From NCBI RefSeq assembly GCF_036250675.1, contig NZ_CP109592.1, positions 6,510,001 to 6,574,000 on the forward strand: 64,000 bases of DNA, given 5' to 3'. The notes under the pieces were generated by a model. It did not search any database, was not told the origin of the DNA, and saw nothing but the letters and a program-made list of their open reading frames with translations. The DNA is from Streptomyces sp. NBC_01689. Lineage in GTDB: Bacteria > Actinomycetota > Actinomycetes > Streptomycetales > Streptomycetaceae. Shown here piece after piece: positions 40,734 to 46,345 of this stretch (position 1 is the first letter of the stretch; every line of letters begins with the position of its first letter). The translations under genes and the position numbers were made by a program.

Positions 40734-42671
40734 TCAGGCTCCACCGACCGCCGTCAGCAGCGCCAGGGGAGCCGCCGCCGACCGCGACTCCCGTACGCAC
40801 GCGTGCGGGTAGGGCACCGGCTCCGCGTGTGTGGCCCGGCCGTAGCCCGCGAGGACCTCGGGGAGCCGGTGACCCGCGGCCGTGGCCGCGTCGACCAGGG
40901 CGTGGGCGACCTGGCGGGCCTCGTCGTGCAGGCCGTAGCGGGCCAGCCCCAGCGTGATCAGCGCGTTGTCGTGCGGCCAGACCGAACCGCGGTGGTACGA
41001 CAGCGGGTGGTACGCGGGCTGGTCCGCGGCCAGGGTGCGTACGCCCCAGCCCGAGAAGAAGTCCGGCTCCAGCAGACGCCGTCCGACCAGCTCGCCGTAC
41101 TCCTTGTCCAGGAGACCGGACCACAGCAGATGGCCCGCGTCCGAGGCGAGCGCGTCGACCTGACGGCCGTCACCGTCCAACGCCAGCGCGGGAAAGGCCT
41201 GTTCGCTCATCCAGAAGTCCCGCTGGAAGCGGTCACGGAGATCACCCGCGGCCTGCTCCAGAAGCGCCGCGTAGACCTCGTCGCCCCAGACCGTACGGGA
41301 GAGATGGGCGGTGCGGCGCAGCGCGTCGTACGCGTATCCCTGCGCGCCCGCCGCCAGCACCGGACCGCTGGGCCGGCTGCCGTCCGCCGAGCAGATCGCC
41401 CCCGGGGAGTCCTTCCAGTTCTGGTTGGCGAGACCGCCGCCGTCCGCGCGGTAGACGAGATAACCGCACGAGGTCAGGCCGCCGTGGTCCAGCATCCAGC
41501 CGATCGCCGCGCGTGCGTGCGGCTCCAGCCGCCGGGCCAGGGCCACGTCACCGGTCTGCTCGGTGTACGCGCCGAGCAGCACCAGGAACAGCGGCGTGGC
41601 GTCCACCGACCCGTAGTACCGCCCGTACGGCACCTGCCCGAAGTGCGCCAGCTCGCCGTGCCGCACCTCGTGCACGATCTTGCCGGGCTGGGCCACCGCG
41701 CCCGCCCCCACCTCGACCGCCTGGGTCGCGGCGAGCGCGGGCAGCGTCGCGGCGGCGAGCCCGGGACGGTAGGGAAGGGCGAACAGCGAGGTCAGCAGGG
41801 CGTCCCGGCCCAACAGCGTGAGGAACCAGGGGACTCCCGCGGCCGGCACCCGCAGCTCCTCGCCGTCCGGCCCGGTCGCCGGTACCTGCAGCACCGCGAG
41901 GTCCGACAGCCCGCGCGCGCAGGCCGCGGCCAGCTCCGGCCAGCCGGTCGGGAAGGGCACGCCCTCCGCGAACTCGCCCTCCAGCGCCAGCAGCCGTTCG
42001 TTCGCCGCGGCGGGGGAGCGGGGGACCTCCGGCTCCTTCAGCGCGCCGTGCGGACGCGCCGCGACACGCAGCGACAGCTCCGCAGAGGCGTGCGGGGGGA
42101 GCTCCAGGGTCCAGACGAGACGCCGGGCGCCGGTGCCCGTCTCCTCGACCCCGTCCGGCGGCGGCTCGGCGGTGACCGTCGTACGGGACCGCCACTCCCC
42201 GCGCCGGTAGCTGAACTCCACCCCGTCGTCCAGGATCCGGCGCCCTCGTACGGCGCCGGTCTTGGCGTACGTGCGGTGGTCGGAGCGCAACTCGAACTGG
42301 TCGGTGAAGTCGGCGTCCACGGTGAGCGCGATACGTACGGTCGTGGGCGTCGGACGGTTGCTGGTGACGGTCAGCGACTCCACGAACGCACCGTCGGCGA
42401 CGGCCTGTTCACGGAAGAGCGTGTACGCGGGCGGTTCGTTGCGGCCACCCCGCGGGACGAGCACGCAGCGTGCCGTGTCGCCGTCCGAGACCGGCGTCAG
42501 CGCCTCGGGCACCGCGCCGTCGACGGTCAGCTGCCAGCGGCTGAGATGACGGGCGTCCCGTACGAACAGCCCGTCCGGGGAGCTGCCGCCCCGCACCCCG
42601 CTGATGTCCCCGCCGTCCCCCACGGCGGCGAACGTCCCACCGTGCACGAGCAGATGATGCCGGTCCGTCAT
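40734..42671 (-). CDS. Amylo-alpha-1,6-glucosidase-like glycoside hydrolase
   Basis: A 645-residue protein. The N-terminal glycogen-debranching-type beta domain (about 1-230) opens with SSPDGLFVRDARHLSRWQL. The C-terminal (alpha/alpha)6 barrel has VPWFLTLLGRDALLTS, the KIVHEVRHGE motif, YYGSVDATPLFLVLLG, NQNWKDSPGAI and YHRGSVWPHDNALI, all conserved in this family, with candidate acid residues in the GRD, SVD and WKD motifs. There is no signal peptide. It starts inside the stop of the upstream MGH-like gene (ATGA) and probably works on the same or a related alpha-glucoside inside the cell. Confidence 0.88.
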   Translation of the reverse strand: MTDRHHLLVHGGTFAAVGDGGDISGVRGGSSPDGLFVRDARHLSRWQLTVDGAVPEALTPVSDGDTARCVLVPRGGRNEPPAYTLFREQAVADGAFVESLTVTSNRPTPTTVRIALTVDADFTDQFELRSDHRTYAKTGAVRGRRILDDGVEFSYRRGEWRSRTTVTAEPPPDGVEETGTGARRLVWTLELPPHASAELSLRVAARPHGALKEPEVPRSPAAANERLLALEGEFAEGVPFPTGWPELAAACARGLSDLAVLQVPATGPDGEELRVPAAGVPWFLTLLGRDALLTSLFALPYRPGLAAATLPALAATQAVEVGAGAVAQPGKIVHEVRHGELAHFGQVPYGRYYGSVDATPLFLVLLGAYTEQTGDVALARRLEPHARAAIGWMLDHGGLTSCGYLVYRADGGGLANQNWKDSPGAICSADGSRPSGPVLAAGAQGYAYDALRRTAHLSRTVWGDEVYAALLEQAAGDLRDRFQRDFWMSEQAFPALALDGDGRQVDALASDAGHLLWSGLLDKEYGELVGRRLLEPDFFSGWGVRTLAADQPAYHPLSYHRGSVWPHDNALITLGLARYGLHDEARQVAHALVDAATAAGHRLPEVLAGYGRATHAEPVPYPHACVRESRSAAAPLALLTAVGGA

Positions 42672-44797
42672 CCCCGGTCCCCTCCCTTGGTTCCCTTGAT
42701 TCCCTCGCCACCCTCGGCGCCCGTCCCGAACGAACCGCGCGGCGCGGTGCCGTCCGGCGGTGCGCCGTCCGGCGGTGTGCCGTGCGGGGCCGTGCCGTTC
42801 GGCGGTGCGCCGTCCGGCGGTGTGCCGTGCGGGGCCGCGCGCTGTCCCGTGCCGACCGTGTCGCGCCCCGGCCGGGACACGACCCGGTCCGCCCCTGAGG
42901 GCTCGTGCAGCAGGTCCAGCGTGAGTGCGGCCGTCCAGCTGAAGCCGAGTGCTCCGCAGGCCTCGCCGGTGTACGGATCCACGTACTCCGCGAACCCGGA
43001 CGCGTCCGCCGTCTCCAGCAGCGCCGCGCGCAGCTCCTCCGCGCGCCCGTGCTCGCCGTGCAGCCGCAGCCCGCGCTCCAGCAGCCAGTTGGTGTTGAAC
43101 CAGGCCGGGCCGCGCCAGTAGCGGCGCGGGTCGAAGGCGCGCCCGGTCAGGTCGTAGCTCGGCACCAGCCGGGCCACCCCGCCGAGCCCGAAGTGCGGGC
43201 CGGCCGCCGTCCGGACGAGGGTGGCGGCGATGCCGCGGGGCAGCGCGGGGAGGATGAGCGGGAGCAGCCCGGCGATACCGCGCTCGGGGATCAGCGCACC
43301 ACTCGGAGAGCGCTGCTCTCCTTCGCGAGCGGTGTTCCGCGAGCGGTGCTCTCCTGTGTGAGCACTGCTTCGTGAGCGCTGCTCTCCGGCGTGAGCACCG
43401 TTTTGTGAGCGCTGCTCTCCGTTGTGAGCGCCGATCCGCGAGCGGTGCTCACTGTCCAGAGCGCTGTCTCGCGAGCCCGGCTCGCCCACGTGAGCCGTGT
43501 CCCGTGACTGGTGCTCTCCTTCGAGAGCACCGATCCGCGAGCGGTGCTCCGCTCCGAGAGCATCGCTCCGCGACGGCTGCTCCGCTCCGAGAGCACCGCT
43601 CGCCGTGAGGTGCTCCGCGGTCTGCTCACCGCTCCGAGAGCGCTGCTCCGTCCAGTGAGCACCGCTCCGCGCCCCCGGTTCCGGGGCGCGGTCGTCACTC
43701 GGGAAGCACCGCTCCGGGGCGCGGTCATCCCTCCGAGAGCACCGCTCCGCTCGATGAGCGCCGCTCTCGCGCTCGGCGTACACGTCCCGGCAGAAGAACA
43801 TCCCCTCGGCCGGGTCCCACAGCCGCTCCACCAGGGCCGCCGTCAGGCGCTCCGCGCGTGCGTGCCGTGCGGTCCCCGCCGCGCCGAGTTCCCGGGCGAT
43901 GGCCGCGAGGGCGTGCTCGGAGGCGATCAGCAGCGCGTTGAACGCGGGGTCCTCGACGGCGAAACGCCCCGTCCCGTCGGCGTATCCGCCGTCCCGGTAG
44001 TCCCGCGCGAGCCGTACGTACCGCCCGTAGTCGAGATCCGTCGGGCGGTCCTCGGCGGATCCGTGGTCGAGGTCGGCACGCCGGAAGGTACGGGCCGGGT
44101 CCGGGGCGATCCGGCCGAGCGGGGCGTCCCAGCAGGGGCTGTTGTCCATCCCCTGCTCCCACGGGTGGACCACGGAGGCGAGCCCGCCACCGCCCAGGTC
44201 CCGGCGGTGCAGCAGATAGCGGTGCCAGGCCGCCAGGCGCGGGTACGCCCGGGGGAGGAAGTCCCGCGCCCGGGACAGGCCCGGGTCGGCCTGGTGCACC
44301 AGCCAGGCGGCGAGCGCGTGCACCGGTGGCTGCACGATGCCCGACGTCTGCACGGTGCGCGGGGCGCCCGCGGCGCGCCCCGCGGTCGAGGAGCGCCAGA
44401 AGTCGGGGCTCGGGAAGTACGCGTCGAGCGGCACGGAGGGGCTGAACACGATGTGCGGAATCCGGCCGTCGCCCCACTGGACGCCGAGCAGCGTCTCCAG
44501 TTCCGTCTGCGCCCGCAGGGGCGACACATGACGCAGCCCGATCGCGATGAAGGCCGAGTCCCAGGACCACTGATGGGGATACAGGCCGCGGGAGGGGACG
44601 GTGGACGTTCCCGTCCAGTTGCCGTCGAGCACCTGGGCGGCCCTGACGTGCAGCGGGCCGGCGGACCGGGCGGGATCGTATACGTCGGCGGCGGCGTGGG
44701 CGGTCTCGCCCGGACCGGGCGGCGCGGGGGAGCCGGAGGTGCGCACGGGAGTGGTGATGCCCGTGCGGCGGATGGCGAGTCGGGATGTGCTGTCCAC
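42668..44797 (-). CDS. MGH1-like (GH63-type) glycoside hydrolase with internal 11-residue repeat array
   Basis: A 709-residue protein. The N-terminal half has the WSWDSAFIAIGL motif and WEQGMDNSPCWD; the C-terminal half has YWRGPAWFNTNWLL and EYVDPYTGEACGALGFSWTAAL. All are hallmarks of mannosyl/glucosylglycerate hydrolase-like (alpha/alpha)6 barrels, which cleave alpha-linked sugars in the cytoplasm. Normal members are around 450 residues. The excess comes from 14 tandem 11-residue units at residues about 345-498 and a Pro/Gly/Thr-rich tail with repeated GTPPDGAPP. The array lies between the FFCRDV and GIAGLLPL motifs and keeps the frame. It is divergent from a ROK regulator and overlaps the debranching-like gene. 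Confidence 0.88.
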   Translation of the reverse strand: MDSTSRLAIRRTGITTPVRTSGSPAPPGPGETAHAAADVYDPARSAGPLHVRAAQVLDGNWTGTSTVPSRGLYPHQWSWDSAFIAIGLRHVSPLRAQTELETLLGVQWGDGRIPHIVFSPSVPLDAYFPSPDFWRSSTAGRAAGAPRTVQTSGIVQPPVHALAAWLVHQADPGLSRARDFLPRAYPRLAAWHRYLLHRRDLGGGGLASVVHPWEQGMDNSPCWDAPLGRIAPDPARTFRRADLDHGSAEDRPTDLDYGRYVRLARDYRDGGYADGTGRFAVEDPAFNALLIASEHALAAIARELGAAGTARHARAERLTAALVERLWDPAEGMFFCRDVYAERESGAHRAERCSRRDDRAPERCFPSDDRAPEPGARSGAHWTEQRSRSGEQTAEHLTASGALGAEQPSRSDALGAEHRSRIGALEGEHQSRDTAHVGEPGSRDSALDSEHRSRIGAHNGEQRSQNGAHAGEQRSRSSAHTGEHRSRNTAREGEQRSPSGALIPERGIAGLLPLILPALPRGIAATLVRTAAGPHFGLGGVARLVPSYDLTGRAFDPRRYWRGPAWFNTNWLLERGLRLHGEHGRAEELRAALLETADASGFAEYVDPYTGEACGALGFSWTAALTLDLLHEPSGADRVVSRPGRDTVGTGQRAAPHGTPPDGAPPNGTAPHGTPPDGAPPDGTAPRGSFGTGAEGGEGIKGTKGGDRG
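43304..43765. repeat. Array of 14 tandem 33-bp units inside the MGH-like gene
   Basis: Exactly 462 bp, 14 units of 33 bp, all in frame. Coding units read, for example, SGAHRAERCSR, SGAHWTEQRSR, SDALGAEHRSR, IGAHNGEQRSQ and NGAHAGEQRSR; the consensus is S/N/I-G-A-H/L-x-x-E-Q/H-R-S-R. Copies in the middle and 5' part of the gene are more diverged. The next 11 residues, SGALIPERGIA, fit the same pattern and lead into the conserved GLLPL motif, so they look like the parental copy. In DNA each unit carries GAGC/GCTC inverted half-sites. Copies directly abut without spacers. Confidence 0.92.
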
Positions 44798-45145
44798 TCA
44801 GGTCTCCCCGAAGACGTCCGGTCGGCCGGTTCGGTACCGGGTACCGTAGGGTTACGTCTATTTAACACGCAAAACTCAATATGTAATGCAGAGTTGGGGA
44901 ACGCAAGGGGTCGGGCACGACCGGTGGCGAAGAGTTCGGGTCCGGGCTGGACGCGGCCCGCACGGCCGGCATGACAGACCCGACCGACGACACGACCGGC
45001 GCGACCAGCAGACTGGCGGGACCGGCACGGTCGGCCGGACCGGTAGGACGGACACGGCGGGACCGGTACGACGGACACGGCCGGCGGGACCGGTACGACG
45101 GACACGGCCGGCGAGGCCGGTACGACGGGAAGGGCGGCGAAGGCG
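44798..45145. other. Divergent promoter region of the glycoside hydrolase operon and the ROK gene
   Basis: 348 bp. An unusually AT-rich patch at about 44850-44895 (CGTCTATTTAACACGCAAAA, then TCAATATGTAATGCAG) probably contains the promoters and the ROK binding site. From 45037 on the sequence is a tandem repeat (separate entry). No convincing gene is present. Confidence 0.5.
45037..45140. repeat. 27-bp tandem repeats just upstream of the ROK gene
   Basis: Two identical 27-bp copies (45060-45086 and 45087-45113), beginning GGACCGGTACGACGGACACG, are flanked by a shortened copy from 45037 and a diverged copy to 45140. The array ends 5 bp before the ROK start codon and so lies in the 5' untranslated region or just upstream of it. 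Confidence 0.8.
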
Positions 45146-46345
45146 ATGAGGGCCGGGAACCAGGCAAGCGCCGGAGATCTGCTCGAACTGGTGCGCAGCG
45201 GCCGGGCCACCACGCGAGGCGCGCTGCAACAGGCCACCGGTCTGTCGCGGGCGACGGTCGGTCAGCGCCTCGACCGGCTCTTCCGGGCAGGCTGGCTGCG
45301 GGAGGGCGCGGGCGGTCCGGTGGACTCACCGCAGGGCGGACGCCCCTCCATCACCCTGGAGTTCGACGACGCGCACGCCGTCGTCCTCGCCGCCGACCTC
45401 GACACCCGGCACGGCCGGGCCGCCGTGGTCTCGCTGACCGGCGAGATCCTGGCCGAGCACCACGGCACCCTGCGGATCGAGGACGGCCCGGACGCCGTCC
45501 TCGGTGAACTGGGCGGCTGGTTCGCCGGACTGCTGGAGAAGGCCGGGCGGCACGCCGGTTCGGTGTGCGGGATCGGGCTGGCGGTGCCGGGTCCGGTCGA
45601 CAGCGAGACCGGCCGGGTCGTCCAGCCGCCGATCATGCCGGGCTGGGACGGTTACGACATCCGGGGGCGGTTGCGGCGCGCCTTCGCCGAGCAGTCGGGC
45701 GGTGGCGCCGGGGTACCCGTGCTCGTCGACAACGACGCCAACCTGATGGCGTACGGCGAACAGCGCGCCGGGTATCCGGACTGCTCGGCGTTCGCCCTGG
45801 TCAAGGTCTCCACCGGGATCGGCGCGGGCATGGTCGTCGGCGGCTCCATCTACCGGGGCGTGGACGGCGGCGCCGGCGACATAGGGCACATCCGGGTCGG
45901 CGCCGACGCTCTGTGCCGGTGCGGGTCGTACGGATGCCTGGCCGCGGTCGCGAGCGGTGGCGCGGTGGCCCGGCGGCTCGCGGAGTCGGGGGTCCCGGCC
46001 GCCTCCGGTTCGGACGTGCGCGACCTGCTGACGGCGGGGCACCCGGAGGCGACGGCGCTGGCCCGGGAGGCGGGGCGGCAGGTGGGAGACGTCCTCGCGA
46101 CCGTCGTGACCCTGCTCAACCCGGGGGTACTGATGATCGCCGGGGACCTGGCCGGCACCCCGTTCCTCACCGGGGTACGGGAGTTGCTGTACCAGCGGGC
46201 GCTGCCGCGCTCCACCGCCCATCTGGACGTGGTGACGTCGCGGCTCGGTGAGCGGGCCGGACTGGTCGGCGCCGGGGCGCTGGTCGTCGAGTACCTGTAC
46301 GCCCCCGAGCGGGCCGAGGAGCGACTGGCGGCGCTGGGCGTTTGA
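45146..46345 (+). CDS. ROK-family transcriptional regulator
   Basis: A 399-residue repressor with an N-terminal winged helix (GRATTRGALQQATGLSRATV) and a C-terminal ROK domain. The zinc motif GHIRVGADALCRCGSYGCL (landmark CRCGSYGC) is intact. The kinase phosphate-1 loop that reads DIGGT in sugar kinases is AADLDTRHG here, so it should bind but not phosphorylate sugars. VDNDANLMAYGEQ and VSTGIGAGMVVGG are other ROK landmarks. ATG 45146 follows GGCGAAGG. Divergence from the two glycoside hydrolases suggests that it represses them until a sugar ligand binds. Confidence 0.92.
   Translation: MRAGNQASAGDLLELVRSGRATTRGALQQATGLSRATVGQRLDRLFRAGWLREGAGGPVDSPQGGRPSITLEFDDAHAVVLAADLDTRHGRAAVVSLTGEILAEHHGTLRIEDGPDAVLGELGGWFAGLLEKAGRHAGSVCGIGLAVPGPVDSETGRVVQPPIMPGWDGYDIRGRLRRAFAEQSGGGAGVPVLVDNDANLMAYGEQRAGYPDCSAFALVKVSTGIGAGMVVGGSIYRGVDGGAGDIGHIRVGADALCRCGSYGCLAAVASGGAVARRLAESGVPAASGSDVRDLLTAGHPEATALAREAGRQVGDVLATVVTLLNPGVLMIAGDLAGTPFLTGVRELLYQRALPRSTAHLDVVTSRLGERAGLVGAGALVVEYLYAPERAEERLAALGV

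Follow-up and report, generated by a model that had tools for sequence, protein, structure and literature searches.

How does an enzyme gene come to hold a long tandem array in its own reading frame, and is it the peptide or the DNA of that array that accounts for it? The question is raised by an MGH1-like glycoside hydrolase gene in a stretch of 64,000 nucleotides of Streptomyces sp. NBC_01689, which is analysed here as a whole and called the window. The coordinates of its features are collected in Table 1.

Table 1. Features of the hydrolase locus, in positions of the window.
Feature	Position	Strand	Remark
GDE_N_bis / MGH1-like gene	40734..42671	-	downstream of the hydrolase gene, overlapping it by 4 bp
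MGH1-like glycoside hydrolase gene	42668-44797	-	709 aa
Second in-frame minisatellite	42735-42837		hydrolase C-terminal tail; 15/45-bp units, PPDGAPPNGTAPHG type
Native loop SGALIPERGIA	43271..43303	-	unit-like; directly after the array in reading direction
Array	43304..43765	-	14 in-frame 33-bp units, consensus SGAHxxEHRSR; between FFCRDV and GLLPL
Palindrome GAGCGCTGCTC	43308..43318	+	
Palindrome GAGCGGTGCTC	43341..43351	+	
Palindrome GAGCGCTGCTC	43374..43384	+	
Palindrome GAGCGCTGCTC	43407..43417	+	
Palindrome GAGCGGTGCTC	43440..43450	+	
Palindrome GAGCCCGGCTC	43473..43483	+	centre not RSY
Palindrome GAGCGGTGCTC	43539..43549	+	
Palindrome GAGCATCGCTC	43558..43568	+	centre not RSY
Palindrome GAGCACCGCTC	43591..43601	+	
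Palindrome GAGCGCTGCTC	43638..43648	+	
Palindrome GAGCACCGCTC	43657..43667	+	
Palindrome GAGCACCGCTC	43737..43747	+	
Palindrome GAGCGCCGCTC	43756..43766	+	last base 1 bp beyond the array edge
Tandem repeat, ~27 bp	45026-45128		directly upstream of the ROK-family gene
ROK-family gene	45146-46345		

The array and its host gene

The hydrolase matches Pfam PF22422 (MGH1-like_GH) with E 4.9e-111. Against NCBIfam NF047898 (glucosylglycerate hydrolase) the insert-bearing protein scored 345 bits, under the cut-off of 550, and its substrate is therefore left unclaimed. Residues D218 and E604, invariant across 24 aligned proteins, correspond in the alignment to Asp182 and Glu419, the catalytic pair of the glucosylglycerate hydrolase from M. 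hassiacum; by this alignment the array-bearing enzyme keeps both catalytic residues. The available part of the paper on the glucosylglycerate hydrolase names five mobile loops, A-E (PMC6608630). On the 6g3n chain, whose index by our own count runs ~2 ahead of the numbering of that paper, the insertion point is between residues 314 and 324, outside the mobile loops A-E as given there (PMC6608630), which leaves the original placement of the array near the active-site barrel weak.

The 14 in-frame units that had been predicted from the sequence were confirmed inside the MGH1-like gene. Tandem Repeats Finder returned overlapping 33-bp arrays at 69-72% matches, together with one 33-bp pair at 86%, which shows that the units have diverged, and units 2, 3 and 5 were a poor fit to the consensus. 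The unit-like segment that follows the array was rightly taken for the native loop. The enzyme also looks ordinary when the array is set aside. Array-free orthologues have a usual short loop, of 13 residues in 55 of the 76 orthologous loci in which it was readable (80 loci were named, and 4 were unreadable by pattern). The expectation that all three minus-strand frames stay open over much of the array did not hold: 4 stops interrupt one of them, the other two being free of stops, and in the plus frames 3, 6 and 1 stops were counted.

Each unit contains two GAGC-RSY-GCTC palindromes, intact or degenerate. Spacers of 8 and 3 nt follow each other in turn, which puts neighbouring centres at distances of 19 and 14 bp. 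The pattern GAGCNNNGCTC is present in 14 copies in the window, 13 of them inside the array, where they span 43308-43766. When the window was shuffled 100 times with its dinucleotides preserved, the count never came to 14 (shuffled mean 3.72), so the number of palindromes in the window is beyond chance. At one mismatch or fewer, 19 palindromes were counted in the array-bearing loop. No Rfam family was found at the gathering threshold within 42000-45500, and a known RNA element was on this ground rejected as the identity of the array.

DNA signal beyond the encoded peptide

Comparison of the 14 units with each other showed that the palindrome columns were 0.776 identical and the spacer columns 0.451 (Mann-Whitney p 2e-4). 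At third codon positions the corresponding values were 0.695 for the cores and 0.398 for the spacers (5 and 4 columns). The centre bases at the two sites were R in 14 and 12 of the 14 units, S in 11 and 14, and Y in 13 and 12. The likeness of the units may be a product of duplication rather than of selection.

The codons of the array deviate from the usage of the window toward those that make palindromes. Within the array, 11 of the 20 Ala codons are GCT, the form that the palindrome demands in one of its frames; the remainder of the gene uses GCT for 0 of 77 alanines, and the called CDSs of the window (hydrolase gene included) use it for 51 of 2171. Not one of 5000 synonymous recodings of the window array, with the protein kept fixed, reached its 13 exact sites (mean 2.88). 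Three orthologous arrays and the cydDC-like insert described below likewise gave 0 of 5000 each, with codons drawn from window usage for all five arrays. The palindromes are therefore not accounted for by the peptide; taken alone, the recoding cannot separate selection from inheritance by duplication.

Palindromes at the promoter of a TetR-type regulator

The same palindromes are found at the promoter of a regulator with TetR_N and TetR_C_33 domains. In the array-bearing genome this TetR gene is located at G000:C1:8342591-8343343, next to a divergent F420H2 quinone-reductase-like gene and with a geranylgeranyl-reductase-type gene nearby, and palindrome pairs with an 8-nt spacer sit between the TetR gene and the divergent gene. 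Orthologues at E 1e-40 were detected in 150 of the 199 sampled genomes of the genus. For the promoter footprint we used 50 of these orthologues, the 30 best matches and 20 lower-ranked matches on the plus strand, and an exact GAGCNNNGCTC was present within 300 bp upstream of TetR in all 50, including L119 (two exact sites) after correction of its start. The 49 promoters other than L119 contained 122 exact and 209 near sites, whereas same-sized control stretches inside the TetR gene at 30 loci contained 0 exact and 5 near sites. In a subset of 34 loci with the start set by residue pattern, exact sites were found in 34/34, with 88 sites against 1.15 expected from shuffles. The promoter sites stand on a 19-bp ladder, the final site is often 33-35 bp ahead of the start codon, and the extended consensus is approximately GA-GAGC-RSY-GCTC-TC. 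From these sequences we infer that the promoter element is the operator of the TetR_N + TetR_C_33 regulator.

The array sites depart from the promoter sites in several respects. A G two bases before the core was found in 69% of the sites at TetR promoters and in 77% of those in the array, but an A next to the core in 79% at the promoters as compared to 40% in the array. At the outer pair of the centre, A.T predominates in the promoters (73%), and G.C is the more frequent in the array (54%). These differences in flanks and centre count against reading the array as operators, and so does its 14-bp spacing, which is absent from the promoter.

Sixteen distant TetR matches, from 6 of the 8 genomes searched, were also inspected. 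Fifteen had 0 exact sites in loci of 3.2-3.7 kb, the remaining one (L247) had a single site with a non-RSY centre ~0.4 kb upstream, and some had a near site upstream. As none of the 16 has an exact promoter site, an operator common to TetR paralogues generally was rejected. A second TetR that is 60% identical (L292, one genome) has two exact sites upstream, and the cognate protein may thus not be unique. All four array carriers (the window, L156, L183 and L219) have a TetR with exact promoter sites; the comparison with non-carriers is uninformative, as the seven that were examined also have TetR, one as a partial match.

In-frame arrays in other species and in another gene

Palindrome arrays occupy the same hydrolase loop in 3 of the 76 readable loci. 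In S. diastatochromogenes (L156) the loop has 102 residues and 11 exact sites, mostly in 36-bp units (12 residues), of which there are ~6. In S. ipomoeae (L183) a 72-residue loop contains 5 exact sites, with 5 units before the native loop, and in S. adelaidensis (L219) a 64-residue loop contains 7 exact sites, with 4 units before the native loop. Copy number, which had been proposed to vary between strains, differs between species, with 14 units in the window and ~6, 5 and 4 in these three. The within-pair distance is constant at 19 bp. The other distance is 14 bp (window, L183 and L219) or mostly 17 bp (L156), so that the two together, 33 or 36 bp, are always divisible by three. The native loop codons in L183 and L219, GCT CTC ATC CCC GAG C, read GCTC-N8-GAGC, which equals a two-operator junction. 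The window groups with L156 (support 100/96) in a tree built from 79 proteins, and L183 and L219 fall in a separate group of 7 rows that includes non-carriers (100/99). Two changes were counted on this tree, only against 8 rows labelled with other repeats; the array may have been gained twice, or gained once and lost once.

The loop is a general repeat hotspot. Unrelated minisatellites were seen in it in other Streptomyces (L193, L158, L188, L008 and L015), and the unrelated repeats reach 135 residues in L193, 87 in L158 and 47 in L188, with others in G022 and G020. No exact palindrome was found in the loop repeats of L193, L158, L188, G022 and G020. The entry of unrelated minisatellites into this loop also counts against the operator reading.

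A palindrome insert was further found in an ABC fusion gene in L100 and L253, which we take to be cydDC-like. The insert adds 29 residues in frame to the second ABC domain in G071 (L100:5927-9871) and G208 (L253:7380-11300), and the gene of G129 is a full-length match to the insert-bearing form. Among 12 other genomes, 11 had adjoining flanks with residues 150-178 unmatched and one (G248) had the downstream flank only; in the 5 of the 12 that were read, 55 residues stand where G071 and G208 have 84. The search of G074 returned no match to this gene. In G071 and G208 every one of the three frames is used for some of the exact and near sites of the insert, and the peptides of the hydrolase array and of the cydDC-like insert differ because the reading frames differ. 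In L253 (G208) a palindrome cluster is also located ahead of the cydA-like neighbour gene.

Distribution in Streptomyces

The exact pair with an 8-nt spacer was found in 190 copies in 73 of the 199 Streptomyces genomes, and its reversed control in 1 genome. At the level of the order, 25 of 119 genomes were positive for the pair with RSY centres, all of them Streptomyces, in a sample that holds 15 genomes from other genera; the control gave 0. Eight pair-rich genomes had 7 to 32 pairs each (spacers 3-27 nt), with 0-2 for the controls. In fifteen regions from five pair-rich genomes we counted 19 clusters, the largest having 15 near sites. Eight clusters lay wholly outside called ORFs, 3 touched an ORF edge only and 8 overlapped a called ORF, the ORFs being called by codon composition and approximate, with several of the cluster-overlapping ones doubtful. 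One cluster (L096) is upstream of a cydA-like gene. Single sites are mostly due to chance, as the whole array-bearing genome has 74 exact RSY sites, 11 of them in the array, and 53 of the reversed pattern.

The TetR orthologue (E 1e-40) was present in 65 of 73 pair-positive and in 85 of 126 other genomes (Fisher p 6e-4), an association with some circularity, since pairs at the TetR promoter are themselves among those counted. At this threshold 8 of the 73 pair-positive genomes had no TetR orthologue, and two of these eight assemblies are 78-82% complete. Such genomes, and G208 with its arrays and no TetR match at E 1e-6, count against the operator reading. Decay of the sites after TetR loss was assessed by hand on five arrays judged orthologous by their neighbouring genes: G071, with TetR present, had 24 exact sites among 43 near ones, and G208, with TetR undetected, had 14 among 28, which is no clear difference and lends such decay no support.

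Some pairs were observed inside other genes. The array-bearing genome has pairs in a Gfo/Idh-type gene (L003, G000:C1:6779424-6779511) and, with one mismatch, in an Rsm22-type gene (L046:8572-8601), ~4 kb apart and with extra residues not evident, and the Gfo/Idh site recurs in at least G009 and G220. In 8 of 30 pair loci (L050, L051, L059, L063, L064, L069, L072 and L073) the pair is conserved inside a gene that is presumably XdhC-like. Conservation of the protein may underlie the sites within the Gfo/Idh, Rsm22 and XdhC-like genes, and in the XdhC-like gene the pair may otherwise be an intragenic operator.

Interpretation of the array

The comparison of sequences establishes that the array palindrome is identical with the promoter element, that its pairs keep the 19-bp register, that the DNA carries a signal beyond the protein and that the element recurs in the same loop and in another gene. 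We read the array, with a probability of roughly 0.55, as an operator cluster of the TetR_N + TetR_C_33 repressor that would have grown in frame in the hydrolase loop. The operator would be GAGC-RSY-GCTC, with pairs on the 19-bp register. The array may have started in a tolerant loop whose native codons already resembled a two-operator junction, and the second spacing within the gene, 14 or 17 bp, would bring the unit to 33 or 36 bp and keep the enzyme readable. Repressor on the array could then act as a transcription roadblock within the hydrolase gene and the overlapping downstream gene, and the array could serve as a decoy that titrates the repressor off its own promoter. The array sites probably bind the repressor; the roadblock or decoy effect and the mode of array growth are guesses. 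More tentatively, Streptomyces may have operator satellites, in which the site of one repressor multiplies at its own promoter on the 19-bp ladder and spreads to intergenic and coding sequence, and an enzyme gene would become a decoy or roadblock.

Much of the same data is explained by a selfish or hairpin-driven palindrome that loops tolerate and that is multiplied through template switching or slippage; the operator would be its origin and binding irrelevant. Many loci with no relation to each other have arrays in G021, G071 and G074, where no region examined was the TetR locus, and one cluster (L091) lies between convergent genes. Array-bearing G208 keeps its arrays with no match to TetR at E 1e-6. 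The array RNA also folds much more strongly than 100 shuffles (z -8.05), and two of the six array frames are entirely stop-free. However, the centre is largely R-S-Y, which a 3-nt hairpin loop does not need, the pairs keep the 19-bp register of the promoter, and no mobile-element gene was recognised on inspection, without profiles, of the ORF lists flanking the arrays. We consider this explanation rather unlikely. The conserved cores could be the outcome of gene conversion. RNA structure is a less likely cause of the array: the folding is strong, yet recognition of the DNA is suggested by the retention of R-S-Y in the centre and by the ladder at the promoter.

It is distinctly improbable that the repeat is a minisatellite at the level of the protein, in which a tolerant loop was duplicated, the palindromes are a by-product of the founding codons and the charged arm may be a neutral or disordered linker. 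The units are like the native SGALIPER, and the loop accepts the repeats without exact palindrome described above. Against this stand the synonymous recoding and the excess of GCT, the presence of the motif at promoters, between genes and in other frames of the cydDC-like insert, and the appearance of the palindrome in the hydrolase loop at two separate places in the tree. The original prediction of a serial duplication of the loop is accordingly retained in part: the units do resemble the native loop, whereas the DNA of the repeat is the TetR promoter palindrome and its codons are palindrome-biased. An assembly artefact is hardly credible. Assembly is prone to error at tandem repeats, and the window is no independent check on G000, both being the same assembly; yet the units are diverged and in frame, and related arrays occur at the same place in the records of three other species, for which reason the artefact was dismissed.

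If the sites of the operator cluster are bound, one stretch of DNA would stand under two codes, coding and regulator binding, and would have grown by tandem duplication. Natural in-gene operator clusters would then exist, and their copy number could alter the amount of free repressor. The decoy hypothesis becomes directly testable in bacteria.

Comparison with known systems

Bacterial intragenic minisatellites (VNTRs) consist of tandem in-frame units with varying copy number. The array resembles them in its tandem in-frame units and in a copy number that differs, here between species, but its unit carries a conserved DNA motif that is elsewhere a promoter element. The datA locus of E. coli is a natural titration site for DnaA. 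Clustered sites away from the regulated promoter could likewise sequester a regulator here, although the sites are inside a gene and the titration is putative.

In a literature search by motif string and by subject, no title among the matches listed pointed to the tandem palindrome element, and in the available main text of a mycobacterial TetR survey neither half-site is present as letters (PMC4482099). According to the available part of a review, Rickettsia palindromic elements are dispersed, ~150 bp long and encode a conserved peptide (PMC10969869). In common with them, palindromic DNA is found here in frame in unrelated genes, where it adds residues, and insert-free orthologues exist; the present arrays are tandem 11-bp palindromes matching a promoter element, and not dispersed elements of ~150 bp (PMC10969869). 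PARCELs are described, in the accessible portion of their report, as a 25-residue amphipathic repeat in ORFs without assigned functions, thought to be spread by transfer (PMC2996958). They share with the array tandem coding repeats, dyad symmetry of the DNA and variable copy number, whereas the units here have 11-12 mostly polar residues instead of 25, lie in an enzyme loop and have an operator link (PMC2996958). For SCO7222, a Streptomyces TetR-family regulator, the part of the paper at hand gives a multi-site operator of three 15-bp palindromes, TGGAACGNCGTTCCA (PMC3511530). As in that system, short palindromes are repeated intergenically beside a TetR-type gene, but here larger arrays also stand at a distance from the regulator, including one in coding sequence with 33/36-bp units (PMC3511530). 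We class the array with the palindromic tandem repeats found inside genes, as a form whose unit is operator-like, and this gives a name to a tandem element found in 73/199 sampled Streptomyces genomes.
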